From Mariprofundaceae bacterium (GTDB lineage: Bacteria > Pseudomonadota > Zetaproteobacteria > Mariprofundales > Mariprofundaceae): a stretch of 64,000 bases of DNA. Under the pieces are notes generated by a model that searched no databases, was not told where the DNA came from, and saw nothing but the letters and a program-made list of their open reading frames with translations. Of this stretch, positions 34 through 18,512 are shown one piece after another (position 1 is the stretch's first letter; each line of letters opens with the position of its first letter). Both the position numbers and the translations under genes were made by a program. The stretch is from assembly GCA_021772895.1 (NCBI GenBank), contig JAJFLC010000015.1, positions 186,001-250,000 of the forward strand. Direction: 5' to 3'.

Positions 34-471
34 TTACCACACCACCTTATCAATTTCGACCTGGGCCAAGGCTGGATCGGCAGTAAGAGCTGGATCAGCA
101 GCAATCACAGCCAGAGCCGAGGATAAATCCAAGCATCCATGCCGTACCGTTCCATGTGTGGTGTGGTGCAGGTAGTGGAGTAGCAGTGAGTGTTGAAGGT
201 AAAATACCAATGTTAGTATGTTCTTCCGGTGAGCCATCCGTAGCATAAACGGTGCCTCGGTGATCTTCTTTTTTTACCCATTTTTTGTTCAATTCATTGA
301 ACACTGTAACCTTTCCCACTCCGATGGTCGCAGGTGGTGTCACATCGGTTACGTGGGCTGGAACCAACGATTTTTTTTTCAACAGGATCAAGATCAAAGA
401 CATCGGTACCCAATAATTCAAACGTGACCGGATGATAGTGGAAAATAGGAATGTTGTTAGTTGTCATTGGC
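34..471 (-). pseudogene. Decayed second copy of tail-fibre assembly/chaperone-like gene
   Basis: Split over two ORFs (95..421 and 34..246). Both match the intact paralog at 1413..2132 (VPAHVTDV..., EDHRGTVYA.DGSP.EH, LPSTL..TP, HHTWNGTAW; C-term ALAVIAADPAL.ADPALAQVEIDKVVW). The middle ~90 aa is missing and the N-terminal frame is broken at a T9 tract. Confidence 0.75.
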
Positions 472-485
472 ATCTGAATATCTCC

Positions 486-1367
486 TTAATATTTAACTAG
501 AAACTGAACTGCGCGATTGCGGGGGCGGGTTTCAGAGCCAACATTGACACCTGTTGGATACACCCATGAGCTAAGACCATTGTTATCAACTGTAGAGGAT
601 GATGGGGATAATGTGTAAGCACCTCCAGCACTAGAGCCTCTAGGCTCCAGATGTTTGTGATCCTGAAACTGGTCGCCCTGCCCAGAGCCGAGAGCTCGGC
701 CACTATCGATGCCTCGAGCATCATCCCAGCCACGTAAAAATTCGCCGCGTGTTTCAATCACGTTAAATGTGGTCGCGCCATCACCAACGCCGTGAGGAGC
801 AACCACAATAGGCACGGCGGATGCGGTGGCTGTGGCATTGATACTGAGCGTGATAGATGTGCCTGAATCGATGCTTAAAACGGTAGTGGCAGCGGGGATT
901 CCCGGGCCGGATATGGGCATTCCTGTAGCCATCTTGCTCGTGTCAGCAATATTGATAACACTTGGAGAAGCTATCGTAGTATCTCCAATGTCCTGAATGG
1001 TGGTTTTGTTAAACAACGCCGCATAAGTTGCGCGCGAAATTGCAGCACCGTTTCCCTTGAGATAGCCCGGTGCCACATCAATACCCGTGTAAGGAATGAG
1101 CCCTCCGACAGGAACCACCGAACTGGATGATACAATCAATGCGGATACAGCATCACGCACCTGCGTAAGATTTGTATGAGCCGGAGTAAGCCCTGCTGAT
1201 GTAATCAGGTTATGTAGCTCCTCTGTGATCATGTGATACCAATAATCCCCCAGAATTGTTGGCGGCACACCCGTCGCCGGGTCACCATTGCTGGCATAAC
1301 CTGTCGAAGGCGATACTGGAGGCGTAGGGGCAGATACAACAGCGCCTGATTCAAACTTTCTATCCAT
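486..1367 (-). CDS. Phage tail fibre / tail-collar domain protein (distal paralog)
   Basis: MDRKFESGA..., VPVGGLIPYTG, GAAISRATYAALF, TRGEFLRGWDDARG, ETRPRNRAVQFLVKY; paralog of 2145..2816. Confidence 0.8.
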   Translation of the reverse strand: MDRKFESGAVVSAPTPPVSPSTGYASNGDPATGVPPTILGDYWYHMITEELHNLITSAGLTPAHTNLTQVRDAVSALIVSSSSVVPVGGLIPYTGIDVAPGYLKGNGAAISRATYAALFNKTTIQDIGDTTIASPSVINIADTSKMATGMPISGPGIPAATTVLSIDSGTSITLSINATATASAVPIVVAPHGVGDGATTFNVIETRGEFLRGWDDARGIDSGRALGSGQGDQFQDHKHLEPRGSSAGGAYTLSPSSSTVDNNGLSSWVYPTGVNVGSETRPRNRAVQFLVKY

Positions 1368-1412
1368 GATAAATCTCCTTATCCCTTTTCCTGTCTATTG
1401 TGATGTTTTTCA

Positions 1413-2132
1413 TCACCACACCACCTTATCAATTTCGACCTGGGCAAGGGCTGGATCGGCAGCAAGCGTTGGGTCAGCAGCAATCACAGCCAGAGCATCG
1501 TCCAGTGCCAAACGTTTACCAAGAATGGTGCCTGCGCTGGCTGCATAGGCATCAGCTTTGGCGATAATCGAAGCTGCAATCACCGCAACGCTTAAGCCTC
1601 TGGCGGTTGCTATCGCCGATAACAACGGTGTGATAGATGCAGGGTCGGCAATCACAGCTCGGGCCTCTGCCTCCTGCTTGTTCCATGTATCCATTTCGGT
1701 TTGTGAGTAAGCGCCTCTAATGACAAAAACGGCCTGCTCGTAAGCTGTGCTGATTTCCATCTTTTTGGCATCCAGAGCTGAAACAAAATCAAACAACCAG
1801 GCTGTGCCATCCCATGTGTGATGCGCACCCGGTGGCGGCGTCACACTCAGTGTAGAAGGCAAAACACCAGGCATATCATGCTCTACCGGTGAACCATCCA
1901 CAGCATAAACGGTACCACGATGGTCTTCTGTTTCCGTCCATTTTCGAGCCGTTTCATCAAACACCTGCACCATGCCTGTCGCCACCGTAGCTGATGGCAT
2001 CACATCCGTTGCATGGGCCGGAATGAGTGGATTCTTTTCAATGGGATCCAGGTCGGCCACATCTTCATTAAGCAACTCAAACGTGACCGGGTCATAATGA
2101 TAAATTGGAACTTCTTTTTCTGTGATTGCCAT
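1413..2132 (-). CDS. Tail-fibre assembly/chaperone-like protein
   Basis: Directly downstream of the fibre gene; N-term YHYDPVTFELL, C-term repeats of Ala/Asp; paralog of the decayed copy at 34..471. Confidence 0.6.
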   Translation of the reverse strand: MAITEKEVPIYHYDPVTFELLNEDVADLDPIEKNPLIPAHATDVMPSATVATGMVQVFDETARKWTETEDHRGTVYAVDGSPVEHDMPGVLPSTLSVTPPPGAHHTWDGTAWLFDFVSALDAKKMEISTAYEQAVFVIRGAYSQTEMDTWNKQEAEARAVIADPASITPLLSAIATARGLSVAVIAASIIAKADAYAASAGTILGKRLALDDALAVIAADPTLAADPALAQVEIDKVVW

Positions 2133-2144
2133 TTGAATCTCTCC

Positions 2145-2816
2145 TTAATATTTGATCAGGAATTGAACTGCGAGGTTGCGGGGGCGGGTTTCTATTCCAC
2201 CAGTAGCACTTGTCGGCCCTGCATCATCAGGAATGGGTGTAACAGCCCCATAAAAAGCTGTGCCATAAGCGGCTCCGGCAAAACTAGGTGCCGTAATATG
2301 GGTATGCGACTTAAAGTCATCCCCCTGAAAACCACCGAGCGGACGACCTGGGTCAACGCCTCTCGCATCATCCCAGCCACGTAAAAACTCACCGCGAAGA
2401 TCGGGCAGATTAAAAGTTGTGGACCCATTACCAGCACCATAAATTATACCAATTTCTGCAAAGAGAGCCGCATATGTGGTGCGAGAGATGCCAGCGCCGT
2501 TACACTTCAAAAAGCCATTGTGTACAGTGCCACCTGCAAAAGGAACCAAACCACCAACAGGGACAGAGATACTGCCTGCTGCGATCATCGCCGCTACGGC
2601 ATCATACACCTGCGTGAGCGTTGCATGGGCAGGTGTAAGCCCGGCCGACACAACCAGATGACGCAGCTCCTCTGTGACCATGTGATACCAATACTCTCCG
2701 GGTACAGTCGCTTGAATTGCCGTAGCTGGGTCTCCATTTGTAGCATACCCTGTCGAAGGTGCCGCCGGCACAGTTGGTACTGATAAAGAGGCCCCTGATT
2801 CAAACTTTCTATCCAT
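2145..2816 (-). CDS. Phage tail fibre / tail-collar domain protein (proximal paralog)
   Basis: Collar motif GSTTFNLPDLRGEFLRGWDDARGVDPGR and C-term ETRPRNLAVQFLIKY. Confidence 0.85.
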   Translation of the reverse strand: MDRKFESGASLSVPTVPAAPSTGYATNGDPATAIQATVPGEYWYHMVTEELRHLVVSAGLTPAHATLTQVYDAVAAMIAAGSISVPVGGLVPFAGGTVHNGFLKCNGAGISRTTYAALFAEIGIIYGAGNGSTTFNLPDLRGEFLRGWDDARGVDPGRPLGGFQGDDFKSHTHITAPSFAGAAYGTAFYGAVTPIPDDAGPTSATGGIETRPRNLAVQFLIKY

Positions 2817-2827
2817 GATAAATCTCC

Positions 2828-3409
2828 TTATCCATATGCATATAATACTTTCGTGTGCGCCGGTTTATCTTCATTGATAGCGCACTCAAGCAGTTCATAA
2901 CCCCACGACCTCAGAGATTCATCAACACCGGATTGAACCGTGCCATCTCTCACCGTGGCGGATGGTGCATTGACCTGAAATACAAAACACCAATCAGCGT
3001 TACAAAGGGGTGCATTCACAGCGCTGCCAACATGATGCACCTTAAATTCTGTGATGGTGATGCTGTAATTGAGACGTGCTGCCAGGTTGATATAATATCG
3101 GGCTGACTGTCCGCCACGCTCAGTTAATTTAGCGTGCACAGCAGATTGTCGTTCTCCCAGCCCTTGGTCTGTTGGAGAGCACGCTGATGGTAACCCGCAT
3201 ATCCGCTCCCAATCTGGTAACAATTCGTAAGTGCTGCGCGGATCCATCTCATCAAACAACTGCTCCGATCTTGCATCGGCACGGCTAAACTCTTCAGCAA
3301 TAGAACCCATAAGCTTTGCCAGATTACTATCCGGGTCACGTGGCCATGCCCGGCCCGGTGGCAAAAGTGCCTGTAGTTGCTGGTGATAGGCTTCTACGCT
3401 CACACCCAT
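2828..3409 (-). CDS. Mu gp48-like (YmfQ/DUF2313) baseplate protein
   Basis: LLPPGRAWPRDPDSNLAKLMGSIAEEFSRADAR...DELLPDWE-type motif; position after gp47. Confidence 0.85.
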   Translation of the reverse strand: MGVSVEAYHQQLQALLPPGRAWPRDPDSNLAKLMGSIAEEFSRADARSEQLFDEMDPRSTYELLPDWERICGLPSACSPTDQGLGERQSAVHAKLTERGGQSARYYINLAARLNYSITITEFKVHHVGSAVNAPLCNADWCFVFQVNAPSATVRDGTVQSGVDESLRSWGYELLECAINEDKPAHTKVLYAYG

Positions 3410-4467
3410 GTGATGATACCCATAACAGGAATTTCACCTGTTCCGCTGACAACATCCGCTGAAGGTAGTGTCAACACATGATCAGCCTCACCTGCTGCAA
3501 TCGAAATCGCTTCGTTAATGTGGCTAAGAAGGACCTTCCCTGCAGGCAATGATTCGCGACGAATCATATCTGTTAACTCAGCTTCAACAGCTGTCTTAAC
3601 GGTTGCCAGAGACGTGCCATTGCCTGGCGTCAGCGCGATAGTGAAATGGATCGGATTTGCTATCGGTGCCACAACAGTCACATCTGAAGTGACAGGTCGC
3701 AATGCATCGATATGACTTTTCACCTTGTCCACATCAGGCTGCGTTGGAATACCATCGACATAGGTCTCATCCATCATAAACCGGACGCTTACCGTGCCGA
3801 TACCCAGCTCCTGTGGAGAACACCAGGCCCGGGTGACACCCGGCATTTGCAGTGCCCACACGACATAATCATCTCGATTGCCTCCATGAGGAGGATGTTG
3901 AATACGGTCGAGAAGTCTTGCGAGTAGTGCTGCATCGTCCTCTGTATCGACGCCACCTGTCAGTCCAACCCCATCCACCGTCGCGCTGGCATCAATACCG
4001 ACCACGGGAGAAATGAGTGAGAGTGAAGTAGCAGCAACAGTGTTTCCGCCGACACCTGCATCCATAGCCGTAACGCCAATGAGAGCAGTGCCTGACACAA
4101 TTGTGCCCGGAGCATCTGTAACAAACTGGGCACCATCTGCCCTTTGAATGGTCGTTCCGGCTGCAATAGTCGGGCCATCCAAACCTGTAAAGGTAACGTT
4201 ACCAAAAGCTTTAGTTGCCACCTTGCGAGAGAGGCCCCATATCGATGCCCATCGTTCCAGAATATCAGCCTCGGCTGTATCATAGATGAGTTGTTTGGAT
4301 AGCCACTCCAGATTACCATAAACGCCATGGAAAGCGCCTGTCAGCGCCTTGGCAAGCGCATAAGATAGCTGCCGACGAATACCGACATCAAGACCGGGGA
4401 AAGCAGCCTCCATGTCAGCCTGAATACGATCACGAATAGTTATTAGGTCAGGACGATTAAATGGCAT
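3400..4467 (-). CDS. Baseplate J / Mu gp47-like protein
   Basis: FNRPDLITIRDRIQADMEAAFPG...; VATKAFGNVTFTG; baseplate J architecture, order conserved. Confidence 0.9.
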   Translation of the reverse strand: MPFNRPDLITIRDRIQADMEAAFPGLDVGIRRQLSYALAKALTGAFHGVYGNLEWLSKQLIYDTAEADILERWASIWGLSRKVATKAFGNVTFTGLDGPTIAAGTTIQRADGAQFVTDAPGTIVSGTALIGVTAMDAGVGGNTVAATSLSLISPVVGIDASATVDGVGLTGGVDTEDDAALLARLLDRIQHPPHGGNRDDYVVWALQMPGVTRAWCSPQELGIGTVSVRFMMDETYVDGIPTQPDVDKVKSHIDALRPVTSDVTVVAPIANPIHFTIALTPGNGTSLATVKTAVEAELTDMIRRESLPAGKVLLSHINEAISIAAGEADHVLTLPSADVVSGTGEIPVMGIITWV

Positions 4468-7400
4468 CAGATGGCCTCCCAGATATTGTCAAAGCGATAG
4501 CTTTCGGAATTACTGTCAGGACGGACAATCTCAATCGATAAACTGAGCATGCCGGTGCGCACCCATTCAGCAGCAACGTTGACAGACTCGGCAACGCCAT
4601 CTTCAATCATCCACTGTAGCGCCTCTTCAGCATATTCACGGGCGCGATTTAATGTTTGTGGTGTCTGTTTTTCCCGATCCAGAAGCCAGAGGCGAGAACC
4701 AATCTGGTCACCTTCGACATCAGCAATCGCATCACCCCAAAAACCACGACGATCTCCTGAACCATCCGGAATCAGATCACCCGGCTCTGCCCACCGATCA
4801 GTGAACAGACTCATAATCACAGCCGTTTGTAATCCATATTCAATGGCCAGCCCCGCAGAAATCATCCTGGAGGATTGCTGTAGCAACGTGACTGGCTCAT
4901 AATCATTAGGCGCATGCATCAAGGGTGGAGAGACCTGAGCAATGGCTACACCGGCAGCATCAGAATCAACTGACGATACCACACGCCTCACAACACCATT
5001 AAATGAGATGCTATTACCGGGCTGTAACACACTGCTACGAGATGGCCAGAAGCCTGCCAGCGGGATAGTATCGCCAGCCGCCAGTTCCGCATCAGTCACA
5101 TAGCGCGGCCAGATGCGGAGTGCGCCCTGGTGGCTGTTGATGTGTCCTGAAGTACCTCCGAGAGATCCCAAATATAAGGCTAGCGTCGGCTGCGCTATGG
5201 CGCTCGTAACAGTGTGGCGCACCACCCCATCCACCAATAGCTCCGTAGTGGTTCCGTTGGTGCGAAGCGCATACTTATGCACCAGCTCGTTCGGGATGAT
5301 TGACGAGTACATCGCGACCCCGCCCAAAAATGCCTCGATTTGCCCCGTAGCTGTCCGGCGGATAAGGGTGTGGGCCCCCGCCTCCCAGAGGCCTAGCGCG
5401 TAATGACTACCCCCATCATTTGGGATAGCCGCCTCTATCTCCAGAGTAAAGCCGTCCGTTAGATTAGTCATAGCCGTATTGGGCAGGCTCACCATGTCTG
5501 CTGCACGGGTTACGGCCGCAGTGGTGGTCGGGATGTAGCTTGTAGCGCGGGGCTGCTCCTCAAGCTGTGCGCCCCACACGTATAAATTGGCTTGGGCGGT
5601 CAGTGTCGATCCGATAAAGAAACTTGGCGTCGTATCCCCTATAATGGTTGTTAGGGTCATGCTTACTCTGTACCAACCGCTACCCACGCTTTCCATGCTC
5701 GCGCTGTCCACTGATATAGTCCCAGTGTCGGAGCCTAACGTCCCTGTTGTCACATCAAAAAATTGTCTCGCATGCCCAGACGTGACATTTACTTGTATGA
5801 AGCTGTCCGTAGCTGATGCCGAGTTCTTCACGTAGCAACTGACTGTTAACTGAGTGGCCTCCGTAACTGTTATGATGCTATACACAAGTGTTACATCTGC
5901 GCTTAACGACACGATTTCATCGGCCGTTGTCGTCCCGTCCGGTGCTACCGTAGCGTCGGCGGTTACCGTCGCATTTGTGGGAGCCCACGAGGTTGTTAGG
6001 TCTTGCGATTGCGGGCACAGGTTCGTACTCGCCCCCTCAATCAACGCCCGCACCACGCCGTCGACAGGATCCCGCTCGTAGCGAAGCGCATCGATGCCTG
6101 CCGTGGTCAGCAGACCGGTAGTGGCATCGATAAACGTGCCAGTCGTAGCACGGGATACTGTGGAGCCTGCCAGCGGAACGGTCTCGGCAGCCTGCCCGAC
6201 TCCCTCAACAACAATACCGCCAAGATGCGAGCCTGCTTTTGCTTCGTCAGCCAGCTCCGTCTCTGACAACGCCCTGTTAAAAATACGTATGTTTTTGATG
6301 TGTCCGTAATAGTTCGCACTTCCAATTTTGATGCCTGTCGGTATCCCGGTTGCTCCCGTTGTCGCTGTTGGCAAACCTTGCAGCACCCCATTGGTAAACA
6401 GGCGTAAATTGGCAGCATCATAAGTATAACCTGCCCTGTAACTGCCACGCACCAGATTGGCATCTCCTGTGATAGCCCCGGTTATGCCATTTTTAATGGT
6501 GAGCAGTCCATTTCCATTGCCTGCGATGATGGTTCTCAGCACCTCGCCTTCTACCCCGAAGATGGTTTGCGCCACTCCTGGATAAACAGCTTTCCAATCA
6601 AAATCCATAGCAATTGAATGCGGCAGGTTAGATGTTGGAAGATTGTCTGCCACCTGATATGTCAGAGAGTCAGCAGCCCTGGTCACCGCCACGGTGGTGG
6701 TTGGAATGTATGAGGATACAAATGGAAGTGCTTCAACCTGGCTTCCCCAGATAACAATAGAACCCTGTGCTGATGGCGTTTGTGCCCATGAAGCAGAGGC
6801 ACCAAGTGCAGGGTAAATGACAATGGTAAGTCCTGTGTTCGCAACATCTTGCGATGTTATGCTAAAAGATACCCTCCAGTATTCGCCGATAAGTTCTGAA
6901 AATGCTGTTGCAGATGGATCTGTCGTAACACTTATATTTATCTCACCCGTTAATGTATCAATACCCAATGTATTGTATTCAATTGTTGAGCCACTGAATT
7001 GCATCTGTAATCCTGCAAATCTTGTGGCACGCCCTATAGCATCTTTTTTGATGTATATAGATGCTGTATGGGTTAATGTGGTTATAGCAGTAGCTTGAAC
7101 TATTGCTTCCCATGTTACAGCATCATTATCCTGAATGGTATCCGCCGTAAGCGTGCCATCCGGTGCAACATCAGTGTTGGCTGTTACTACAGGTATCCCA
7201 AGTGGAGCCCACATAGCATACTCTGATGTATGGGTAAGAAGATTTGTACTTGCACCCTCAACCAGCATGCCATTTTTTTCAAAACGAGGTTCATCCATCG
7301 CTGCTGTTTTGAGTAGGCCCGTAGCACTATCCCAATAGGTAGCAGATGTAAGACGGGTAAAAAGACCCATTTCACCTGTAACTTTATTGATAAGATCTCG

Positions 7401-7559
7401 GGTTAAAGGGATCTCAGCCAGCATCCCCGATATAGCAGGTGCAACATCAGCAAAAGCTGTAGGAACCAGACCAGGTTCAGCCTCCTGCTCTAGCGCAATA
7501 TCGAATCGAGGCGACTCATTTGGAGAGCCTGAAACCTGAATCAGTGCAAAATCAGTCAT
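4467..7559 (-). CDS. Composite Mu gp46-like baseplate protein with two N-terminal tandem LamG-like modules
   Basis: C-term LQTAVIMSLFTDRWAEPGDLIPDGSGDRRGFWGD (gp46 signature) behind two similar ~370-aa modules (EGASTNL..., YIPTTT.AVTRAAD, LamG-like tails). Confidence 0.8.
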   Translation of the reverse strand: MTDFALIQVSGSPNESPRFDIALEQEAEPGLVPTAFADVAPAISGMLAEIPLTRDLINKVTGEMGLFTRLTSATYWDSATGLLKTAAMDEPRFEKNGMLVEGASTNLLTHTSEYAMWAPLGIPVVTANTDVAPDGTLTADTIQDNDAVTWEAIVQATAITTLTHTASIYIKKDAIGRATRFAGLQMQFSGSTIEYNTLGIDTLTGEINISVTTDPSATAFSELIGEYWRVSFSITSQDVANTGLTIVIYPALGASASWAQTPSAQGSIVIWGSQVEALPFVSSYIPTTTVAVTRAADSLTYQVADNLPTSNLPHSIAMDFDWKAVYPGVAQTIFGVEGEVLRTIIAGNGNGLLTIKNGITGAITGDANLVRGSYRAGYTYDAANLRLFTNGVLQGLPTATTGATGIPTGIKIGSANYYGHIKNIRIFNRALSETELADEAKAGSHLGGIVVEGVGQAAETVPLAGSTVSRATTGTFIDATTGLLTTAGIDALRYERDPVDGVVRALIEGASTNLCPQSQDLTTSWAPTNATVTADATVAPDGTTTADEIVSLSADVTLVYSIITVTEATQLTVSCYVKNSASATDSFIQVNVTSGHARQFFDVTTGTLGSDTGTISVDSASMESVGSGWYRVSMTLTTIIGDTTPSFFIGSTLTAQANLYVWGAQLEEQPRATSYIPTTTAAVTRAADMVSLPNTAMTNLTDGFTLEIEAAIPNDGGSHYALGLWEAGAHTLIRRTATGQIEAFLGGVAMYSSIIPNELVHKYALRTNGTTTELLVDGVVRHTVTSAIAQPTLALYLGSLGGTSGHINSHQGALRIWPRYVTDAELAAGDTIPLAGFWPSRSSVLQPGNSISFNGVVRRVVSSVDSDAAGVAIAQVSPPLMHAPNDYEPVTLLQQSSRMISAGLAIEYGLQTAVIMSLFTDRWAEPGDLIPDGSGDRRGFWGDAIADVEGDQIGSRLWLLDREKQTPQTLNRAREYAEEALQWMIEDGVAESVNVAAEWVRTGMLSLSIEIVRPDSNSESYRFDNIWEAI

Positions 7560-8125
7560 TGCGGGCCTCCCGTTGTTCCTGCGGACGAACCGGTGGTGAT
7601 CTGATGAGTGTGATTATTCATATTGACACCAGCCAATGTCAGTGTGCCTGTAACCGTTGTATTACCATTCACAGTCAGATTACCATTCACAGTCAGATTA
7701 CCGTTGTGGGTTGAGTCGTTCGGTGCATCAATCACGATGCCGCTACGTAACAGCTTCACGGCCTGATTCAGGTCGTCATAGATAGCCACTTCGCCTTCAG
7801 CCAGATGCAAACGATAGCGTCGATCATCCACCGCAATCACAATCGGGTGTGAGCGGTTGGCCCCAACATTAAGAATAAGACAATCCGATTCCGGGTGTGG
7901 ATGGGCGGTAAATCCATACTGTTGAATTCGTTCCACACCATCAAGGAGCTCACCGGCCAGCGCCGTAATCTGCAACTCCTGCATTTTTCTTGCATCATTG
8001 ACCACTTTCACCACGCCACGGGTGACCAATAGCTTCATCCGCCGCTTGACCGGCGCGAGCATCTTCTCAACAAGCCTTATCATAACCTTGCTCCATCTAT
8101 ATCGCCTTTCAGCCGGAAAGAGCAT
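7556..8125 (-). CDS. Mu gp45-like baseplate assembly/spike protein (gpV family)
   Basis: NDARKMQELQITALAGELLDGVERIQQYGFTAHP; repetitive LTVNGN tip and HTH motif near C-term; start could be Met at 8086. Confidence 0.85.
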   Translation of the reverse strand: MLFPAERRYRWSKVMIRLVEKMLAPVKRRMKLLVTRGVVKVVNDARKMQELQITALAGELLDGVERIQQYGFTAHPHPESDCLILNVGANRSHPIVIAVDDRRYRLHLAEGEVAIYDDLNQAVKLLRSGIVIDAPNDSTHNGNLTVNGNLTVNGNTTVTGTLTLAGVNMNNHTHQITTGSSAGTTGGPQ

Positions 8126-8150
8126 GTGAATTTACTTTCCTGTAAATTTA

Positions 8151-9188
8151 TCATGCTGCGTCCCCATCTTTTTCCGGCGTGAGCAATACGTCAAAAGCAC
8201 TTCGCTTCATCACTGTCAGTTCACTGTGTGTGCCCTGCTCATCTCGGATATAAGAAACGCTAGAGATAAGTAGCGGTGTATGATCAAGTGGAGGTTCCAG
8301 ATTTGGGTCCGTAACAGACACAATGGTATTGGGCTGCCATAGACTCATCTCGTCAGGGCCCCATCCTGTAACGGTGTACACAACTGAACGGGCCCGCCCG
8401 GCGCGTACATTGCGTTCAAAATCAGCTGTCTTTTTCAGATCAGCACCATTTTCGGCAAGGATGGTAAGCGGACGATGCCGTTTTCCAAAGCTGGCATCTT
8501 CGCTGACATATTCACTCTGCGTAGGCCTCTTTCCGGAATCGGAATCGTTTTGTGGACCTTGATTTTTTACCGTGATCTTCGAATAGAGATCACGCATCGA
8601 ATCATTCGCACTACAAGTCAATACATTTTTCCCGAATACAATGCTGCCACCCGAAGGCTTATCACTCGCCTTGGTGATGATCAGGTTGCCCAGCGCATCG
8701 GAAACGAGTAACACGCCACAATCCGCAGCCAGCATGGATAAAACCTCAAAAACAGTTTGTCCCGGTGCAATATTACTTTTGCCAAACGGCTTGCCAACAT
8801 CAGTCTCAGCACGCACCTTGATGCCAAATGGCTTACATAGTTTGGTGGCGATTTCGAGCAGGTTGCTACCCTTAAGATCCGTTTCAATAGCCGAGCAATC
8901 CACCAGATCACCCGTGGCATCACGGCCACTGATCGTGATATCATGACTCTCCTTACCATAACTCACACTACGATCATCTACAGCCCCACCGATCACCTGT
9001 TCACCATCGATCAGCAATTGGCAGAGTGCCCCTTTTTTAATTGGTCGGGTAATGTTTTCGCCTGACCAATTATCGCTCACAGTTAACTCAAAAGAGCCGG
9101 AAATGGATTCGATAGAGCGTGTAATACGCATCGACGTCCAGCCACCGTAATCGATGTCGTCCACCTTGAGCTGAACCTCAGTCTGCAC
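8151..9188 (-). CDS. Mu gp44-like (gpP) baseplate hub protein
   Basis: VDDIDYGGWTSMRITRSIESISGSFELTVSDNW; FGIKV motif; gene order. Confidence 0.85.
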   Translation of the reverse strand: MQTEVQLKVDDIDYGGWTSMRITRSIESISGSFELTVSDNWSGENITRPIKKGALCQLLIDGEQVIGGAVDDRSVSYGKESHDITISGRDATGDLVDCSAIETDLKGSNLLEIATKLCKPFGIKVRAETDVGKPFGKSNIAPGQTVFEVLSMLAADCGVLLVSDALGNLIITKASDKPSGGSIVFGKNVLTCSANDSMRDLYSKITVKNQGPQNDSDSGKRPTQSEYVSEDASFGKRHRPLTILAENGADLKKTADFERNVRAGRARSVVYTVTGWGPDEMSLWQPNTIVSVTDPNLEPPLDHTPLLISSVSYIRDEQGTHSELTVMKRSAFDVLLTPEKDGDAA

Positions 9189-10362
9189 GGATCACCTCCA
9201 GTGGTGAGCCGCCTGATACAAAGCCGGAATGACTTATATGATTTCGTGCGATGATCTCTACATCACGGTTCGCATCACCATAAATGCGGTGAGCCAGCAC
9301 CAGTGCGGGTAATGTGGTTTTGGGTGTAAATGAACTAAGCTGTGGTGACTTGGCAGCACGGCTGGTTAAATCTTTAATGACTGCTGTCCGCAAATCCACA
9401 AGCGCCAAATAAACATCATCACTGGCTGTTTCAAGCAAGTCTTCTATTTTCTCGGCCAGCGAATCTCTCAATTCAATGGCGGAGCGACTACTTGCCGGTG
9501 TTATCAATGCCGATACTCTGGATTGCTCGATCACCGCCAAACGTTGGATAAGATCAATGCTCGCTTGCTGATTTAACGCCTGTGCCTTACGGGCAACTGT
9601 CGTTAATGGTGGCAACTTCATAGCCGTTCCAAAATCTTCCAGCCGTTGCAGGGCTGACACCGGGTCAGCACTACTGTTTATCACGCTGGTTACGATGCCT
9701 GCCATACCATCGCCAAGATCCGAGGCTGTCTGAAGCAGCGTATTTAACGATGTCTGAAATGCTGCTAAACCACGATTAAAATCTGTGATTTCTAATAAAA
9801 TGCCCGGCACGGATGCCATCGCGGCATGAATGCTATCAAGCGCACCATCTATCACTGCTGAGGCTTCATGAGCCACCCAACCGGGCAGTCCTGACACATT
9901 AAATTTATTGGCAAAGTCTGCGACTATAGATGCTACAGTCAGATCGGCTTTGCTAATAACAACTGCAGATGTATCCACCTTCGCCGATGGGAACTGTTGT
10001 TTACCGGCCTCAGTGAAGGTAACTGAAAAAGTTGCCTTACCACCTTCACTGGTGGTTTCACTCAGGCTATAGGTTTCGACCTGCACCTGCAGACGGCCAA
10101 GCCATGGATGTACCAGCTCTCCAGGACCAACCTGTTCCAGTGCATTAAGCATGGCATCTCGACCGACCATGTAGTCAGCCCCGATGATGTGAAGCTCCAA
10201 CGTATGCGTGCGTGCCTTACGACCCAAATCCTCCGGCCACGGATGATTCCGGCCAGGGTATTCATGCCGGGTTACGCGGCGGCCACCTTCCGTACTCTGA
10301 GATTTCGCCCGAAATGAGACATTTCGAAATTTCCCTTCCTGCATCTGATCACGCCACGACAT
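9178..10362 (-). CDS. Mu gp43-like (gpN) DNA-circularization family protein
   Basis: MSWRDQMQEGKFRNVSFRAKSQSTEGGRRVTRHEYPGRNHPWPEDLGRKARTHTLELHIIGADY. Confidence 0.85.
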   Translation of the reverse strand: MSWRDQMQEGKFRNVSFRAKSQSTEGGRRVTRHEYPGRNHPWPEDLGRKARTHTLELHIIGADYMVGRDAMLNALEQVGPGELVHPWLGRLQVQVETYSLSETTSEGGKATFSVTFTEAGKQQFPSAKVDTSAVVISKADLTVASIVADFANKFNVSGLPGWVAHEASAVIDGALDSIHAAMASVPGILLEITDFNRGLAAFQTSLNTLLQTASDLGDGMAGIVTSVINSSADPVSALQRLEDFGTAMKLPPLTTVARKAQALNQQASIDLIQRLAVIEQSRVSALITPASSRSAIELRDSLAEKIEDLLETASDDVYLALVDLRTAVIKDLTSRAAKSPQLSSFTPKTTLPALVLAHRIYGDANRDVEIIARNHISHSGFVSGGSPLEVIRAD

Positions 10363-11493
10363 TTAACTCCCCCTCCCCACTGACGTATTACCAGTGTCGA
10401 TGCTGGTTTCACCGGCCTGGTCAGTACTCTTTATGGACTTCACTCGGGCAAGCCCGTTTTGGTCAAGCGTCATCTTCACATCAACTTTCGGGTGTGTTAC
10501 ATCGTATATCCATGAACCGATCTTCCCGCCAATAAAAGCTTTTTCAAAAGCCGAACCGAGCTCATAGGCTGTCAAACCTACATTGGCCACGGCACCAATC
10601 GGAGTTACAGCTGCAACCTTTAACGCTGCCTTGGTTAGCGTAGCAGCACCGGCCTGTTTTATTACTCGAGCACCGTTCTTTTTGACGACGTCCAGAACAA
10701 CAGGTCCTATCTTCTTTATAAAAGCGAACGCTTCTCCGAACCTGCCGACTTTACCGGATCCTGTAATTTTGGGTCTGGTATAGCTTCTTATTCTGGGCTT
10801 GGTAGAGCTTCTTATTTTGGACCTTCTAATTTTTTTATCTTTTCTCTTTTTGGAATTTTGGTCGCCTTGACCATAGAACCCACCATCTGTGGATTGAGAG
10901 GAATCAGAAGGAAAATAAGAAAATAGTTCCTGAACCTTTTTATAACTGTTTTGCAAAGATGTGAACATGCCTTTGCCACTTTTATAAGCATCATTTAAGG
11001 CTACAAACACGCCTTTGCCGCTCTTATAAGCCTTGTCTATGGTTGCGAAAACGCCTTTACCACTTTTATAAGCTTTATCCAAAGAAGTAAGTACGCCTTT
11101 GACCTTTTTATAAACCGGAGATACAGGCGCACCTTTGCTTCTGCTACCTTGATACATTTTATCCAGAGCCATGAGTACGCGTTTGCCACTTTGATAAGCT
11201 TTATCCACATTGGAGAGCTCTTTTTTACCGCGATTATAAGTTTTATCCAGTTCAGAGAGTGCCGTTTTACCTCTTTGATAAGCTTTATCCACATTGGAGA
11301 GTACCGCTTTACCTCTTTGATACATTTGATTGCCCGGCTGAGCTCTGGAGGAAGCCCTGCTGCGATTCTGTATATTCCGTATCTTCAAAGCATTACGGTC
11401 ATACGTTTTACCCATGCTGTTGACAGCACGTGAATAACGCAGAGCCTTCTGTTCAAGGTTGCCGATCAGATTGATAACAGTAGCTATTTTCAT
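10363..11493 (-). CDS. Short repeat-rich putative tail tape-measure protein
   Basis: Sits where Mu gp42 (tape measure) lies, between tail chaperone and gp43; ten 14-aa repeats, basic linker, hydrophobic segment. Confidence 0.55.
   Translation of the reverse strand: MKIATVINLIGNLEQKALRYSRAVNSMGKTYDRNALKIRNIQNRSRASSRAQPGNQMYQRGKAVLSNVDKAYQRGKTALSELDKTYNRGKKELSNVDKAYQSGKRVLMALDKMYQGSRSKGAPVSPVYKKVKGVLTSLDKAYKSGKGVFATIDKAYKSGKGVFVALNDAYKSGKGMFTSLQNSYKKVQELFSYFPSDSSQSTDGGFYGQGDQNSKKRKDKKIRRSKIRSSTKPRIRSYTRPKITGSGKVGRFGEAFAFIKKIGPVVLDVVKKNGARVIKQAGAATLTKAALKVAAVTPIGAVANVGLTAYELGSAFEKAFIGGKIGSWIYDVTHPKVDVKMTLDQNGLARVKSIKSTDQAGETSIDTGNTSVGRGS
10906..11325 (-). repeat. Ten tandem 42-bp (14-aa) coding repeats, consensus AYKSGKGVLSSLDK
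   Basis: MYQRGKAVLSNVDK/AYQRGKTALSELDK/TYNRGKKELSNVDK/AYQSGKRVLMALDK/MYQGSRSKGAPVSP/VYKKVKGVLTSLDK/AYKSGKGVFATIDK/AYKSGKGVFVALND/AYKSGKGMFTSLQN/SYKKVQELFSYFPS. Confidence 0.9.
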
Positions 11494-11598
11494 GCATCCG
11501 ACTCCTTGATAACAAGCTTAAGAAGCCTGCTCAGTCGCAGGCTTTCAACTTCATACCTCGACCAGTGTAATATGGTCGAAATGTTGGGTACAAAACGG

Positions 11599-11967
11599 TC
11601 AATCAACGCCCGCGATAGCGGGATCATCTCGCCCCCGGTTGCTGATATCCTCTGCAATGGCATCATCCAGCAACTCAGCTTTCTCCTGTAGAAGAATCAG
11701 GTCATCTTTTGAAAGTTTGCCAATCATCGAGGTAGAGAGCGGGCCGGGGATATCACCGATTTTCTCGATCTGTCGCCCAAGCAGTTCCGTGCCCATCCGG
11801 GCAGGGCTTTGCACCAGTATCGGCCCATCATCTGTCTGAACCATTTTTTCAGAAGCCTCAGCGGCCTCGATAATATCCGCAGCTGTAAGATCGCGAAGAA
11901 CAGCCAGAGTTTGCGGCTTTTCATCAAGCAACAGACCCTTCTGTAATGTGACTTCAACCCGAGCCAT
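11599..11967 (-). CDS. Mu gp41-like tail assembly chaperone
   Basis: ARVEVTLQKGLLLDEKPQTLAVLRDLTAADIIEAAEAS; position between tube and tape measure. Confidence 0.75.
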   Translation of the reverse strand: MARVEVTLQKGLLLDEKPQTLAVLRDLTAADIIEAAEASEKMVQTDDGPILVQSPARMGTELLGRQIEKIGDIPGPLSTSMIGKLSKDDLILLQEKAELLDDAIAEDISNRGRDDPAIAGVD

Positions 11968-12332
11968 CAGGCTTTCACCTCATCACAGCTAATGCCGACA
12001 AACTTCGCTTTTACTTCACCGCCTGAGAGTGTCACGGTATCAACACACCAGGCATTACGTAGCACCCAGTGCCCGCCTGTATCGGTCTCAAAACTGACAT
12101 CTTCACTCTCAATGGCTGCAACCGCCTTCAGGCTGATACCGCTCTTGTGCGTCAGCGTGGCGTCAATCGATGGAGCTGCAGGCTCCGAGGTGAAGCCTGC
12201 AACACCTTGATCATCAATGACCTCAGCGCGCTTAACCCCACCAAAATCGAGGGTGGCCCCCGCTTTGGATCGAAGCACACCCAATGAAGCGGTGGAGATG
12301 GTGATTTTTCCTGTTACCTGATTAGCATTCAT
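11967..12332 (-). CDS. Mu-like tail tube protein
   Basis: NANQVTGKITISTASLGVLRSKAGATLDFGGVKRAEVIDDQGVAGFTSEPAAPSIDATLTHKSGI. Confidence 0.85.
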   Translation of the reverse strand: MNANQVTGKITISTASLGVLRSKAGATLDFGGVKRAEVIDDQGVAGFTSEPAAPSIDATLTHKSGISLKAVAAIESEDVSFETDTGGHWVLRNAWCVDTVTLSGGEVKAKFVGISCDEVKA

Positions 12333-12344
12333 AACTTAATCTCC

Positions 12345-13805
12345 TTAAACTTTAAACTGGACCAGGTTTGCGAAGACACGCAGCTGGTTCACAAGATTTG
12401 GTTGATCAACAACATTGATGCGATTTGGATTGGTCGGATCAATTTCAACAAACAGCGATGCTGCATAACCCTCGAAATCCTCCATCAGACCCTGATCAAC
12501 TTCGCGCTGATAAACCGCCCGCATCGTTGACTCAATATCCTTCGGCCGAGCAAGAGCCTGACCCGGTGACAATGGCTGGCTATCCATCGCCAGCTTATGA
12601 CGTGGATAACGTAGACCAATTTCTGAACGCAGGTTGTAGCGATGTACTTCCAGCGTCTCAGGTGTGTTCACATAGAGATAAGCCACATCATCCACACCGG
12701 CATCATTGACCTGATACTGCGTGATAGCCGCTTCAATACGGCAGGCTCCATCAGGGCTAACCGTAAAGGTTGAGATGCCATCGAACAGCGCCAGGTTGCG
12801 CTCCGTATCACTCCAGCGATCTGCAACCGATGGTGCCAGCATGCCTGTCAGTTCAAGTGTCTGAAGGGGGCGCGCCGGGTCAATGGCCAGTGCCTGTGAA
12901 GCACGAGCGCAGTAGATGGCAGCAGCGATACATGGTTGGGTTGGGCTGTTCTGAACGCCCAACATTGATACATGTGCAGAGTTCCGGGCAGATCCAAAAG
13001 TAACACTTGCAGCATGCGTAGCTTTATAAGCAGAAAATGCTCGTCCGCCCATCTGTTGCATAGCGCCATAGCGCGCATCAAGCTCGGTTTCCAAAACGAC
13101 CAAATTAGTCAAGTCAGTATAAGGCATGGCGACCCAACGGAACCATTCAGTGCTAATAGCTGCCAGAGCGCTGGCGATATCCGGATTGGATGTGCCACCG
13201 GACATGGCGGTGATGACAATACCAACACCGGCAGGGGTCTGTTCGCCGTAATAGTTCAAACGCAGATCGATATCGTTGCCACACGCGCCTTTATGGCGTG
13301 CGGTTGTGGTGACCGTGCCAAGCACGTTGGCAGCAGTTACAGGTAAACGGGTGTCAGCGTTGATGGCTGCTGCAATAGCATCGCCGATCACGGTGGCAGA
13401 ATCGCCGGAAGCCACAGCGGCCTGCACACGTTTGCCACCGACATAAATATTCAATGTGCCTGTCTTTGTGGCAGGACCAGTGATAGCAAGCGTACCAGAA
13501 GCAAAAGCTCCGGCAACGTTATCATCTAATGCAATGGCCCAGGTCTCAGTCCATGGATCAATCTCCATCACATGCGAAGACATTTCAGAAAGCATGGATC
13601 CGCGGCCAAAATAGGTCTCAGCCAAAGCTGAAGATGTGATACGGGTCGGGACGTTTGCAGCGACAGTGCCGGCTGCCAGACGTTGACCAATAATAAGTCG
13701 TTTGAAGCTGGCCTGAGCCAGACCTGCCAGTGATGCATCAAACTCAATATATGCACCGGGAATTCGAAGATTCGCCGGGATTTGTGTAAATGCGATGCCT
13801 GTCAT
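12345..13805 (-). CDS. Mu-like tail sheath protein (gpL)
   Basis: ITFTQIP.NLRIPGAYIEFD, QRLAAGTV, YFGRGSML; C-term LRYPRHKLAMD...FANLVQFKV. Confidence 0.95.
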   Translation of the reverse strand: MTGIAFTQIPANLRIPGAYIEFDASLAGLAQASFKRLIIGQRLAAGTVAANVPTRITSSALAETYFGRGSMLSEMSSHVMEIDPWTETWAIALDDNVAGAFASGTLAITGPATKTGTLNIYVGGKRVQAAVASGDSATVIGDAIAAAINADTRLPVTAANVLGTVTTTARHKGACGNDIDLRLNYYGEQTPAGVGIVITAMSGGTSNPDIASALAAISTEWFRWVAMPYTDLTNLVVLETELDARYGAMQQMGGRAFSAYKATHAASVTFGSARNSAHVSMLGVQNSPTQPCIAAAIYCARASQALAIDPARPLQTLELTGMLAPSVADRWSDTERNLALFDGISTFTVSPDGACRIEAAITQYQVNDAGVDDVAYLYVNTPETLEVHRYNLRSEIGLRYPRHKLAMDSQPLSPGQALARPKDIESTMRAVYQREVDQGLMEDFEGYAASLFVEIDPTNPNRINVVDQPNLVNQLRVFANLVQFKV

Positions 13806-14083
13806 AGGACACCTCCTTCCGTTTTATTTTTTGATGTTTTAGATTTTGGCTTTTTAGCTTTTGATTGTTTAACGGTGGCAGATTTACGGACAGAAACTTC
13901 CACAACATCCCTGTCTGCCAGACGCCGTATCCAGTAAGGGCTGCGCGGCTTCTCTTCACCCTTAGCTGCCAAGGCCTTACGGGTAAGTGGATCACGAACC
14001 GTGACCAATGGGTCTACAGGTTTGATCTTTATGCTGTTCATTTTGTACCTCCGTGTACTCCACCAGGTTGGGTGGAGAAACAT
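13802..14083 (-). CDS. DUF2635-like small tail-region protein
   Basis: IKPVDPLVTVRDPLTRKALAAKGEEKPRSPYWIRRLADRDVV; immediately upstream of sheath, as in Mu-like phages. In-frame start may be the internal MNSIKIKP. Confidence 0.75.
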   Translation of the reverse strand: MFLHPTWWSTRRYKMNSIKIKPVDPLVTVRDPLTRKALAAKGEEKPRSPYWIRRLADRDVVEVSVRKSATVKQSKAKKPKSKTSKNKTEGGVL

Positions 14084-14108
14084 CTAATGTCCCTGGCCTT
14101 ATTCATTG

Positions 14109-14636
14109 TCATAGCGGCAAGGTCTCTTCTGTAACCAGTTCGGCTTCGGCATCTGCATCCAGCTGCGAATCGGCATGGAAAGTAATGAAACTATTTACAG
14201 GGGCAGGCGCTTCACTTTCCATCGTTGAATACGTTACTTCATAAGTTAAGGTGGCATCGCCATGTGGCGGAACACTGATTAAATCAACACTTAAAGATGT
14301 ATCCGTCAAAACAAGATCACTGACAAGGCCACCCAGATCTACAGACTTGTCCATCGCGATTTCAACCTCTGTAGCTATTTGATCTAACGTATCTTCCAAT
14401 AAGGATGTCACTGGGGCACGGCCGCGAATCTCCAGTGTCAATTTACGCCGTTGATCACGCGGGTGCTGTTCTGACTCGTAGCCAACCCGTTCATGGCGCG
14501 TATAGATCAGCAAACAGGGCAAAAATGCCGGGTCCACATCATAAACCTGACCCGGAAAAACATTAGCGCCGGTTGTGACCAGCCCTGTTAACTGTGCAAC
14601 AGCTGCATCACGGATCTGTTTACGTGCGTGTGCCAC
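14109..14636 (-). CDS. Tail terminator / tail completion-like protein
   Basis: ARKQIRDAAVAQLTGLVTTGANVFPGQVY...FLPCLLIYTRHE; start of tail operon. Confidence 0.7.
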   Translation of the reverse strand: MAHARKQIRDAAVAQLTGLVTTGANVFPGQVYDVDPAFLPCLLIYTRHERVGYESEQHPRDQRRKLTLEIRGRAPVTSLLEDTLDQIATEVEIAMDKSVDLGGLVSDLVLTDTSLSVDLISVPPHGDATLTYEVTYSTMESEAPAPVNSFITFHADSQLDADAEAELVTEETLPL

Positions 14637-14661
14637 TAAACTTCCTCAAAAACCACAGTAA

Positions 14662-14784
14662 TCATTTCTGTACTCTGAAATATTCAGAATCAAAAACAGC
14701 TTTGATCAGCGAATCATTCATGGTGATTTTTTCACCTTTGACAGTAAGCATGTCCAGCCTGTCCGCATCAAATTCAAATGCCAT
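14662..14784 (-). CDS. Unlisted 40-aa small protein at the head of the tail operon
   Basis: MAFEFDADRLDMLTVKGEKITMNDSLIKAVFDSEYFRVQK, preceded by GAGAGGAGAG ribosome-binding site; absent from the ORF track (length cut-off). Confidence 0.5.
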   Translation of the reverse strand: MAFEFDADRLDMLTVKGEKITMNDSLIKAVFDSEYFRVQK

Positions 14785-14987
14785 TTTCTCTCCTCTCTTT
14801 CAAAACCGGCTCTTGTTCGTAAAAACAGCAAGGCGGTTTATATTTTTAAGAGCGACCAACTTTCGAGGTGACAAAAGAGGGCCGCTCAACTTTTTTCCAG
14901 TCTGCTTTTCAGGCTCAGCAACATAGTGCTGAAGCGCCGTGGCACGCATCATGACGGACAAAAAAGGAAACGATTAAGACAAGCGTT

Positions 14988-15338
14988 TCACTTTTTATTT
15001 GATTGAATTTTCTTCGCCTCTTCGGCTTTTTGTTGAATAATCTGACGAATGCGACGTGAGCTTAACTTGTAACGTCTGGACAACAGCGCAAGACGCTCAC
15101 CTTTCAAATAATCTCGATAAATCATGCCATCTCTTGCCAGCATTTTATCACGATCAAATTGTGTTTTGCTTATATACGGGCGATCACCACCCCAATCACG
15201 ACGAACCCCAGCCTCAATCAAACGCAGTGTGGTGTGATCAATTTCAGGATGTACATCCTTTATCCGTTTAAGAATATCACAGATCAAATCATCTTTTTCA
15301 CTCACGATCCCCTCCAAACCAGTACCCATTGACCACAA
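14988..15338 (-). CDS. Mor-like transcriptional regulator
   Basis: LRLIEAGVRRDWGGDRPYISK... plus C-term HTH-like LSRRYKLSSRRIRQIIQQ, resembling Mu Mor/C family. Confidence 0.65.
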   Translation of the reverse strand: MWSMGTGLEGIVSEKDDLICDILKRIKDVHPEIDHTTLRLIEAGVRRDWGGDRPYISKTQFDRDKMLARDGMIYRDYLKGERLALLSRRYKLSSRRIRQIIQQKAEEAKKIQSNKK

Positions 15339-15706: not shown

Positions 15707-18100
15707 TTAGAGGCTATCCGTTCCTTCAACTTCTTTGTTGAACTCCCGGATTTTGTCCACCAGCCAACTCACCCAAAGATAACCTTCCGGTTTTTGATCC
15801 GATTTAGGGACTACCACTGTCACAGTCTTTGGTTTTTTACCTGTGGTCATGACAGGCTTTTTCATAACCTCAATGCCATCACACATTCGGATGCGTGATG
15901 AAAATTTAAGTTTTGTATAAGCGCTACGTTCACCCTCAGACCTGCACCATTTTTCATAAAGCCTGTATAGATCAGCCAGCGCGCACGTTTGGCACGCCAC
16001 AGATATCTCATCACGCAGCCATACCTCGATGAAACGATCGGGTGACTCTTTTGATAATTCAATCAACTCAGACTTCGCCCGCGTTTTCAGTGGTTTTGTA
16101 TGCTCGCTGAAATCACCTAGATCGAGTTTCAGAAGGTAGTTATGCAGCGCTTCAATACCACCCGATTTCACCTCAATAGAAGCATCGATGTAAAATTGCG
16201 AAGGCTTTGGATCAGGTGTCCAGACAACCATGAACCTGCGATCGTCTTTTTCCAGTACCAACGGTTGCTTTTCGTTTGACAGAAACACCAGATTGGCATG
16301 ATTCTTTTCCCACATCGATTTCACATAAGGAGCCCGGATACGGATCGTGTCCTCGGTGATCAAACCTTTGATACGATTTTTTGTATGAAACAGCTCCTGT
16401 CTGGCCACAACCTCATTCGCAATCAAATAGAGTTTAGCGGAAAGCCAGTCGGTGAACGTATCTTCTAAGGCATCCTGACCAATGATGAACCCATATTTAC
16501 CATAAATGGCTTTGACAGCCTCAAAAAAAATATTCTTTCCTGCACCCTGCGGACCATGAAATACAATCGCCGTTCGCATCTTTGCACCCGGGTTTTGGAT
16601 AGGATAAGCCAACCAGCGCAGCACCCACCGATAAACTTCGTCCGGCCTCTCTTCACCGCTGCACATATATGCCAGCAGCTCCAACAGCTTTTCACATGAG
16701 TCTTTCTCATTCGGCACAGTTGGCCAGCCATTCCACAGGTTGCAGACAATACCATCATCGGTATCAGTAGGATCAAACCCTACCTGCTCAAGTTTCACAA
16801 TTTTACGATCAGGACGTGTCTTCCACTCCTTCCAACCATGATCAGGCATGATGTCCATCACACATGACTTCGGTACCAGGCATCTCTCCTGATGATCAAA
16901 CATCAGATCCTTCACCCCATAGACAAGTGAATAACGATCACACGCCTCATCGACATTGATAAAAGGTAGTAGAGCTTTCTCTATCACCCTCTTGCGTATT
17001 TCCCGTGTGGGAGGTTTCGCCTTGCCGGCATGAGGAAATTTCAGATCAATAGCAGCCTTCAACTGATCCGCCACACCCAACAACCCTTCTTCAATGTGCA
17101 AATCATTAAAGTCAGTCAGTTTCTGTCCTTCCCTGGCTACAAATTCAGGTTTGATCCACTCGGCAGAATCCACTGACATCGTGGCTTTCATAGCTACGGT
17201 TACACCAGTATTCTGTTTGCCATGTCGCTCTGTACAATGGAAACACAGCTCATTTTCAACCCGTGTTTGTTTTTTGCAATACGGACACCTGCAAAGATAA
17301 TCATCATCGGCAGCAATCAAGAAATACGCCTTCGGGTACTGTTTTTCCAAGTTGAGAATTACTGGAATCATGTTGTTCACTGAAAAGACCACAGCTACCG
17401 CCAAGCCGGTAGCTTCATGCAAACTAACGCCTGTGGCATACCCTTCCGTGATCAGGATAACGCCATTAGGATCAGGTATGTCAATCATATGAAAGTGACC
17501 CTGCATCGCCAGGCCATTCGGCCAGAATCGTTTATCCGATCCGTTGAGACGCCGGACTTTCTCTCTATGAACCGGATTGTCCTTATCCAAAATAAACTGA
17601 AGGCCATGCAACTTGCCGGATGTATCGCACATCGGAACCGCAATAGCCCCATCACGTGTAAAACGAACGCCCTTAGCAACAATCTGTTTACGAATCAAAT
17701 ATCCAGACTCACCAAAATCACTAAGGTCACGCCATTTTCGCAACGCTTCACACGCGGCCTTGGCTTGCTCTTCTTTAAGCTGGTACTGCAAACGTTTTTT
17801 GTTTTCCATGATACGTTTACGAACCAAAGCATTGTCCTCTTTGCTCGCCTTAGCCGCTTTAGGAATCTTTATCTTCTGCAAACCGTTATCATTGCCGTGC
17901 CAAACACCAAAACTACCAACGATAAAAACATCTCCAGAATCAAACGGCATCTCATGCAGCCAATACCAGCCCTTACGTCCACGCTCCCCATCGACAAAAC
18001 AACGGAGCGGTCGCGACGTGCCGACATCAAAGCCAGACGTGTCTAGTCCTGCAGTCTGTAATTGATTAACCACATCACCATAATTTACTGCTGAACTCAT
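15707..18100 (-). CDS. Phage TOPRIM primase / D5-type helicase
   Basis: ILITEGYATGVSLHEATG + IAADDD (TOPRIM), AIVFHGPQGAGKNIFFEAVKAIYG (Walker A), SNEKQPLVLEKDDRRFMVVWTP (D5/DUF5906-type). Confidence 0.9.
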   Translation of the reverse strand: MSSAVNYGDVVNQLQTAGLDTSGFDVGTSRPLRCFVDGERGRKGWYWLHEMPFDSGDVFIVGSFGVWHGNDNGLQKIKIPKAAKASKEDNALVRKRIMENKKRLQYQLKEEQAKAACEALRKWRDLSDFGESGYLIRKQIVAKGVRFTRDGAIAVPMCDTSGKLHGLQFILDKDNPVHREKVRRLNGSDKRFWPNGLAMQGHFHMIDIPDPNGVILITEGYATGVSLHEATGLAVAVVFSVNNMIPVILNLEKQYPKAYFLIAADDDYLCRCPYCKKQTRVENELCFHCTERHGKQNTGVTVAMKATMSVDSAEWIKPEFVAREGQKLTDFNDLHIEEGLLGVADQLKAAIDLKFPHAGKAKPPTREIRKRVIEKALLPFINVDEACDRYSLVYGVKDLMFDHQERCLVPKSCVMDIMPDHGWKEWKTRPDRKIVKLEQVGFDPTDTDDGIVCNLWNGWPTVPNEKDSCEKLLELLAYMCSGEERPDEVYRWVLRWLAYPIQNPGAKMRTAIVFHGPQGAGKNIFFEAVKAIYGKYGFIIGQDALEDTFTDWLSAKLYLIANEVVARQELFHTKNRIKGLITEDTIRIRAPYVKSMWEKNHANLVFLSNEKQPLVLEKDDRRFMVVWTPDPKPSQFYIDASIEVKSGGIEALHNYLLKLDLGDFSEHTKPLKTRAKSELIELSKESPDRFIEVWLRDEISVACQTCALADLYRLYEKWCRSEGERSAYTKLKFSSRIRMCDGIEVMKKPVMTTGKKPKTVTVVVPKSDQKPEGYLWVSWLVDKIREFNKEVEGTDSL

Positions 18101-18441: not shown

Positions 18442-18512
18442 TATTGTGCGGCGCTCTTTGGTGCAGGATTCTTTTAATCCGTGGGCCCTTGGTTCGAGTC
18501 CAAGGTTTCATA
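18442..18512 (+). pseudogene. tRNA-Lys-derived fragment
   Basis: CTTTTAATCCGT (tRNA-Lys anticodon loop/3' stem) followed at canonical spacing by GGTTCGAGTCC inside a CCTTGG/CCAAGG T-arm; 5' anticodon strand and acceptor stem do not pair. Confidence 0.45.

Follow-up and report, generated by a model that had tools for sequence, protein, structure and literature searches.

A gp46-family baseplate protein with an internal pair of lectin-like modules, and its counterpart on the other tail of the element

The window analysed here is a stretch of 64,000 nucleotides from a Mariprofundaceae bacterium (GenBank assembly GCA_021772895.1, contig JAJFLC010000015.1, positions 186,001 to 250,000). It encodes a 1030-aa protein that is assigned to the gp46 / Mu BW1 sheath-initiator family by its PF07409 profile match, its place in the operon and its N-terminal strand. 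Sequence comparison located a large insert inside this protein, revealed homology between the two modules of the insert, found the modules absent from the gp46 homologues sampled and detected a corresponding pair on the siphovirus-like hub of the same element. We consider it likely that the protein is an "evolved" sheath-initiator or wedge gp46 presenting up to 12 lectin-like modules, which would bind surface polysaccharide and serve in adsorption.

Site of the insertion in the gp46-family protein

The gp46 ORF (4467-7559, minus strand, 1030 aa) contains no internal stop and lies between a gp45-like (spike) gene and a gp47-like (baseplate J) gene. It is translationally coupled to both, its ATG overlapping the gp45 stop (ATGA) and its stop overlapping the gp47 start (TGATG). 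Pfam GP46 (PF07409) matched residues 910-1017 of the 1030-aa protein with 134.6 bits against a cut-off of 28.6 (E 1.4e-39), phrog_180 "baseplate wedge subunit" matched residues 899-1030, and Mu gp46 (PDB 9ki1) matched the core with an E value of 8e-29. Members of the family usually have about 145 aa and no accessory domains, which is a common and not a defining property, and the window gp46 deviates from this at 1030 aa. Mu gp46 (baseplate wedge 1) resembles it in the N-terminal strand, the entire core and the operon slot between gp45 and gp47, but has only 145 aa, whereas the window protein holds an insert of about 875 aa. An initial annotation of this DNA had the coordinates right, with the two halves of the insert at 7364-5085 (residues 66-825). 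It had confined the gp46 signature to the last ~135 aa; this agrees with the C-terminal core (910-1017 by Pfam, 899-1030 by PHROG) but leaves out residues 1-23, which also belong to gp46.

4467..7559 (-): whole gp46 with internal insertion; 1030 aa, with Pfam, PHROG and PDB matches
7491..7559 (-): gp46 N-terminal strand, residues 1-23 (MTDFALI...FDIAL); spliced-query match, alignment with L069 MTDIAFIPQSAGLNLPGYDIALSG, N-terminus ranking
7374..7490 (-): linker, residues 24-62; no match in family searches (Pfam, PHROG)
6660..7373 (-): module A CBM-like jelly-roll domain, residues 63-300; phrog_1419 / phrog_5939 tail proteins, predicted all-beta, top Foldseek matches E217/Pa193 wedge proteins
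6234..6659 (-): module A LamG-like domain, residues 301-442; Pfam Laminin_G_3 at 5.8e-6, alignment with the LamG termini of viral homologues
6174..6233 (-): inter-module linker, residues 443-462; placed by its position between modules A and B
5460..6173 (-): module B CBM-like domain, residues 463-700; RcGTA head spike fibre 6tb9 at E 4.3e-26 over 468-696, pLDDT about 70-86 over most of it
5079..5459 (-): module B LamG-like domain, residues 701-827; aligned to viral LamG ends, Foldseek matches to laminin LG, pentraxin and galectin folds
4863..5078 (-): spacer, residues 828-899, similar to a portion of a distal-tail family; phrog_1302 over 823-899 at E 1.3e-7 (for the protein), structural model unreliable here
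4470..4862 (-): gp46 core, residues 900-1030; Pfam GP46 at 1.4e-39, PDB 9ki1 at E 8e-29

When residues 26-896 were removed from the query, the remaining 159 aa matched Alteromonadaceae phage B23 gp46 (1-159) in a single piece, and the same spliced query matched Mu gp46 in a single piece over residues 1-152. In the core alignment, the closest relatives on viral contigs, L069 and L070, share 67% and 64% identity with the window protein. Both lack the insert, beginning with MTDIAFIPQSAGLNLPGYDIALSGADLLADNGLKTAV and MADIAFVPISSGGLNLPGYDISLSGADLLAETGLKTAV, respectively, and the window protein reads MTDFALIQVSGSPNESPRFDIALEQ, then the insert, then ISAGLAIEYGLQTAV. Among 6,639 N-termini, with gp46 frames excluded, the window N-terminus ranked second against L069 and first against L070; against a profile built from 142 gp46 N-termini it was second of 6,681 targets. 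The profile score by itself is weak (10.4 bits), and the N-terminal assignment therefore leans on the three ranking results together. The insert runs from residue ~23 to ~900 in the loop preceding the first helix, where homologues vary in length too. Since residues 1-23 are gp46's own N-terminus, about 875 aa separate the first strand from the helix that follows it. As judged from the alignments, the module block is an internal insertion after residue ~23 and not a graft on the N-terminus, as had been described: the spliced query aligns with Mu and B23, and the N-terminus is kept in L069 and L070. With all four of these proteins, a short form aligns at both ends of the long one, which is the pattern of an evolved protein.

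Searches over 500 genomes, together with scans of viral contigs and GTDB genomes, yielded about 185 gp46 frames in the fetched loci; the GTDB-genome scan for gp46 used a narrower alignment, the first one containing no stretch that was conserved enough. A comparable insert was found in none of these homologues, the closest relatives (64-67% identical) included. Alignments with records of the phage collection never reached 80% of the window protein, and among the matches listed for the spliced query, those to gp46 were single pieces. A large N-terminal part is thus not standard among the homologues, and the count of modules in relatives, which the initial annotation had named as a check, came out in its favour. 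Short C-terminal additions were seen in the gp46 of L072 and L076. Several frames that appeared to be "long" gp46 proteins (L095, L193 and similar) were discarded, because their extra residues come from a high-GC open frame upstream of the true start and are not domains. The Mu-like contig L121 was also rejected as a source of a CBM-bearing baseplate protein, its CBM pair being encoded by a separate gene of its own downstream of gp46.

Modules A and B and their relatives

The insert comprises modules A (residues 63-442) and B (463-827), each of about 365-380 aa and each combining a CBM-like and a LamG-like domain. An N-terminal strand region is followed by a CBM-like jelly roll, which closes with WG.Q.E...SYIPTTT, and then by a LamG-like domain with ..ELA at its end. 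BLASTP aligned A with B at 30% identity over 393 columns (115 bits, E 2e-33), and their Smith-Waterman score of 307 lies far above that of 200 shuffles (50 +/- 9, maximum 81). Every motif quoted earlier for the two halves is present in both, confirming their shared motifs and order. The similarity resides mainly in the CBM-like part (282 vs 49 +/- 8). The LamG-like parts alone scored 41 vs 32 +/- 7, which is not significant pairwise, and both align to the same viral intermediates. Pfam Laminin_G_3 matched module A with 27.0 bits (E 5.8e-6), just under the curated cut-off of 27.6. A piece of ~70 aa after module B (823-899), overlooked before, resembles the distal-tail family phrog_1302.

The PHROG matches of the modules are tail proteins (phrog_1419 / phrog_5939 for A), and homologous modules elsewhere are mostly found in tail-fibre genes. 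Among solved structures, the RcGTA head spike fibre Rcc01080 (PDB 6tb9, E 4.3e-26) is the nearest relative of the module B CBM. AlphaFold models of A and B had low mean pLDDT values (56.6 and 55.4), with 70-86 over most of the CBM part of B, and low TM-scores against their fold matches; the fold is therefore assigned mainly by homology. With these low-confidence models, the best two PDB folds for both modules were the wedge proteins of Pa193 (9b45) and E217 (8env), followed by galectins and laminin LG for both and by pentraxins and sialidase for B, and the viral fold matches were ConA-like lectin tail proteins. The structural comparison proposed in the initial annotation thus found wedge, galectin and laminin LG folds common to both halves. 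The E217 gp45 and Pa193 gp46 wedge (triplex) proteins, a part of which matches A and B by fold, also have a weak sequence match (E about 5e-4, residues 227-421). They differ in representing another wedge subunit, which carries the tail-fibre attachment and falls outside the Mu gp46 family. The matching part of 8env_K and 9b45_1 is not described as lectin-like in the accessible portions of the source papers.

The host element and the module pair on its hub

The gp46 gene belongs to an element of 35.9 kb (G000:C7:168605-204504) that is integrated at tRNA-Lys and runs from position 2605 of L066, the upstream flank of the window on the same contig, to window position 18504. Its two ends are marked by identical 34-bp copies of the 3' part of tRNA-Lys, with a tyrosine integrase at one end and a primase at the other. 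It contains a Mu-like contractile tail operon and a siphovirus-like tail operon, both complete, as well as endolysin, repressor-like and late-activator-like genes.

2828..14636 (-): Mu-like contractile tail operon, from family matches: terminator, sheath, tube, chaperone, presumed tape measure, gp43-, gp44- and gp45-like, gp46, gp47, gp48
10363-11493 (-): presumed tape measure, 376 aa, with 28-aa repeats (AYKSGKGVF...); assigned solely from its place in the operon, family searches giving no match
14557..15010 (-): leader that includes a 40-aa ORF, plus the first part of the tail-terminator gene; an 80% identical copy lies ahead of the second tail operon
15707..18100 (-): phage-type primase, right end of the element; phrog_2249 at 2.6e-121
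18471..18504 (no strand): right attachment site, repeating 34 bp from the 3' part of tRNA-Lys exactly; the other copy lies within tRNA-Lys at L066:2605-2638 (G000:C7:168605), beside the integrase

With only 376 aa, the presumed tape measure implies a very short contractile tail. The leader aligned with L066:19168-19675 over 514 BLASTN columns (80% identical, E 1e-132), and this common leader suggests that the two tail operons share late control. No head genes were detected in an ORF survey between the attachment sites, where ORFs of terminase, portal or capsid size have other assigned functions, and four head-gene families (PF03237, PF20441, PF04860 and PF05065) had no match in the whole genome. 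Pseudomonas aeruginosa has dual R-F pyocin clusters in which contractile and flexible tails adjoin, with regulation and lysis genes in common and no head (PMC9810705). The two tail operons, the lysis genes and the lack of detected head genes agree with a dual R/F tailocin, but the tyrosine integrase and the 34-bp att repeats do not, and the element is therefore called tailocin-like only. R-F pyocins lie in the trp region, whereas the present element has an integrase, tRNA attachment sites, a primase and inserted CBMs on both tails. Overall, it resembles a dual R/F tailocin or a headless prophage.

The siphovirus-like hub of this element (L066:11257-14076, minus strand, 939 aa) carries two CBM-like domains, of which the first (A') is 43% identical to A and the second (B') 41-42% identical to B. 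A' precedes B', as in gp46, but the two form separate insertions, and no LamG part was detected in the hub copies, which consist of CBM-like domains only. Relatives of the hub were found among siphophages, and the viral-contig search gave CBM matches only. Oceanospirillum phage GJ44 and Marinomonas phage P12026 have hubs without CBM-like domains; relative to these, A' separates SCTA from CYNT, and B' follows PANY, in the cysteine-containing N-terminal region. These positions indicate that the hub has likewise been altered by insertion, at two sites.

In a tree of the modules, A and A' were sisters (support 98/81, the bootstrap values being not fully settled), and A, B, A' and B' grouped with one sequence from the Mu-like viral contig L121 (87/89, with the same reservation). 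B and B' did not appear as sisters. Within gp46, GC3 is 0.32-0.46 in module A vs 0.59-0.66 in module B. No DNA-level similarity was found between the gp46 modules and the hub modules, which argues against recent copying between the two. The initial annotation had described A and B as tandem duplicated; as a recent event in place, this is rejected on the GC3 contrast and the tree. A duplication in situ following one acquisition would account for the homology of A and B and for their same domain order inside gp46. However, the overall identity of 30%, the very different GC3 and the greater closeness of A to A' (43%) and of B to B' (41%), together with the sister position of A and A', make such an origin distinctly unlikely.

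Proposed role on the baseplate

Each Mu baseplate contains six gp46 subunits, which initiate the sheath (PMC11915804). We propose that two CBM-like plus LamG-like modules, with linkers and a ~70-aa spacer, entered the gp46 loop that joins the first strand to the next helix, and that both gp46 parts would still join at the baseplate, folding back into one protein. Should they do so, six copies with two modules each would add up to 12 lectin-like modules per particle. The modules would most likely bind a surface polysaccharide of the target cell (capsule, exopolysaccharide or LPS) and benefit adsorption alongside the collar-type tail fibres, by analogy with evolved Dits. In the lactococcal skunaviruses, internal CBM insertions in evolved Dits promote adsorption to exopolysaccharide-bearing hosts, and one or two CBMs lie inside a conserved tail-tip protein with both ends still alignable to the short form (PMC10688798), as in the present case. 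Evolved Dits differ in belonging to siphophages of Gram-positive hosts and in having 5E7T-type CBMs, whereas the window carries CBM-LamG modules in a contractile-tail gp46.

A tagged RcGTA spike fibre bound capsule-bearing R. capsulatus better than capsule-free cells (PMC10218006). Rcc01080, the sequence relative of the module B CBM-like domain, differs from the window protein in being a separate capsid protein of a gene transfer agent and not an insertion in a baseplate protein, and it is this homology to a capsule binder that points to glycan binding by the modules. A surface-binding, possibly glycan-binding role had been suggested earlier, along with a broader target recognition, which is a possible consequence. 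The two homologous lectin-like modules, absent from close homologues, bear this out in part; glycan binding would be their most likely role by homology. Two CBMs are also found in a large extra domain of the AlgoCIS baseplate protein Alg11, with a proposed role in attachment (PMC8894135). The gp25-like protein of AlgoCIS is Alg9, and Alg11 is a separate wedge protein, whose likeness to the window gp46 lies in its domain content.

The main rival is a structural role, in which the modules form a collar or cage of the baseplate, or a docking site for tail fibres, without glycan binding. It owes this standing to the E217/Pa193 wedge proteins, the top fold matches, which share the fold and, in the accessible parts of their sources, are described as fibre-attachment or wedge parts without a glycan role: E217 gp45 appears there as the subunit holding the tail fibre, and the Pa193 text, as far as it is accessible, mentions neither lectin nor carbohydrate. 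In AlgoCIS, the CBMs of Alg11 make up a spike cage. No binding to the host was seen with the distal CBM of the A-1(L) neck fibre (PMC10966104), so similar domains need not bind, and the modules could be structural spacers. Considering that the RcGTA spike fibre, which is closest in sequence, serves as a receptor-binding protein and that homologous modules occur mostly in tail-fibre genes, we regard a purely structural role as unlikely. The insertion might also be a non-adaptive accident in a decaying prophage with a nonfunctional gp46, to which the undetected head genes, the remnant fibre-assembly gene at 95-421 and the duplicated fibre genes would be suited. This is very unlikely, because the 1030-codon frame is free of stops, its translational coupling is intact, disrupted genes were found in neither tail operon, and the modules are borne as matching pairs on two unrelated tail proteins, gp46 and the hub.

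CBM insertion in a baseplate protein is already known; what is new is the location in gp46 and the match on a second tail of the same element. The gp46/gp25-like sheath initiators are among the most conserved parts of the baseplate, and no other one seen in this survey bears adhesive domains. The gp46 loop apparently tolerates a very large insert, and an evolved gp46 would extend the evolved-Dit principle to contractile tails. With gp46 and the hub, two tail systems in one element use related binding domains in the same order. Because the hub has the same A/B CBM-like pair, both particles probably attach to one type of glycan. We put forward more tentatively, as a possible reading, a tRNA-integrating headless element with contractile and flexible tails, whose operons would be co-regulated through the duplicated leader and whose two tips would have been fitted independently with the same lectin-like pair. 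If this is true, two distinct particles would carry one common glycan address.

Three further observations concern the element and its genome. The collar-type fibre and fibre-assembly genes are duplicated at window positions 36-2833, with stretches about 69-93% identical, and the outer fibre-assembly copy (95-421) is a remnant. Between the tail operons, at about L066 19650-20000, a transposase-like remnant reading MKKCRLSWYKQDRLIEHF... was recognised by eye only. The genome also encodes a RuBisCO large subunit.
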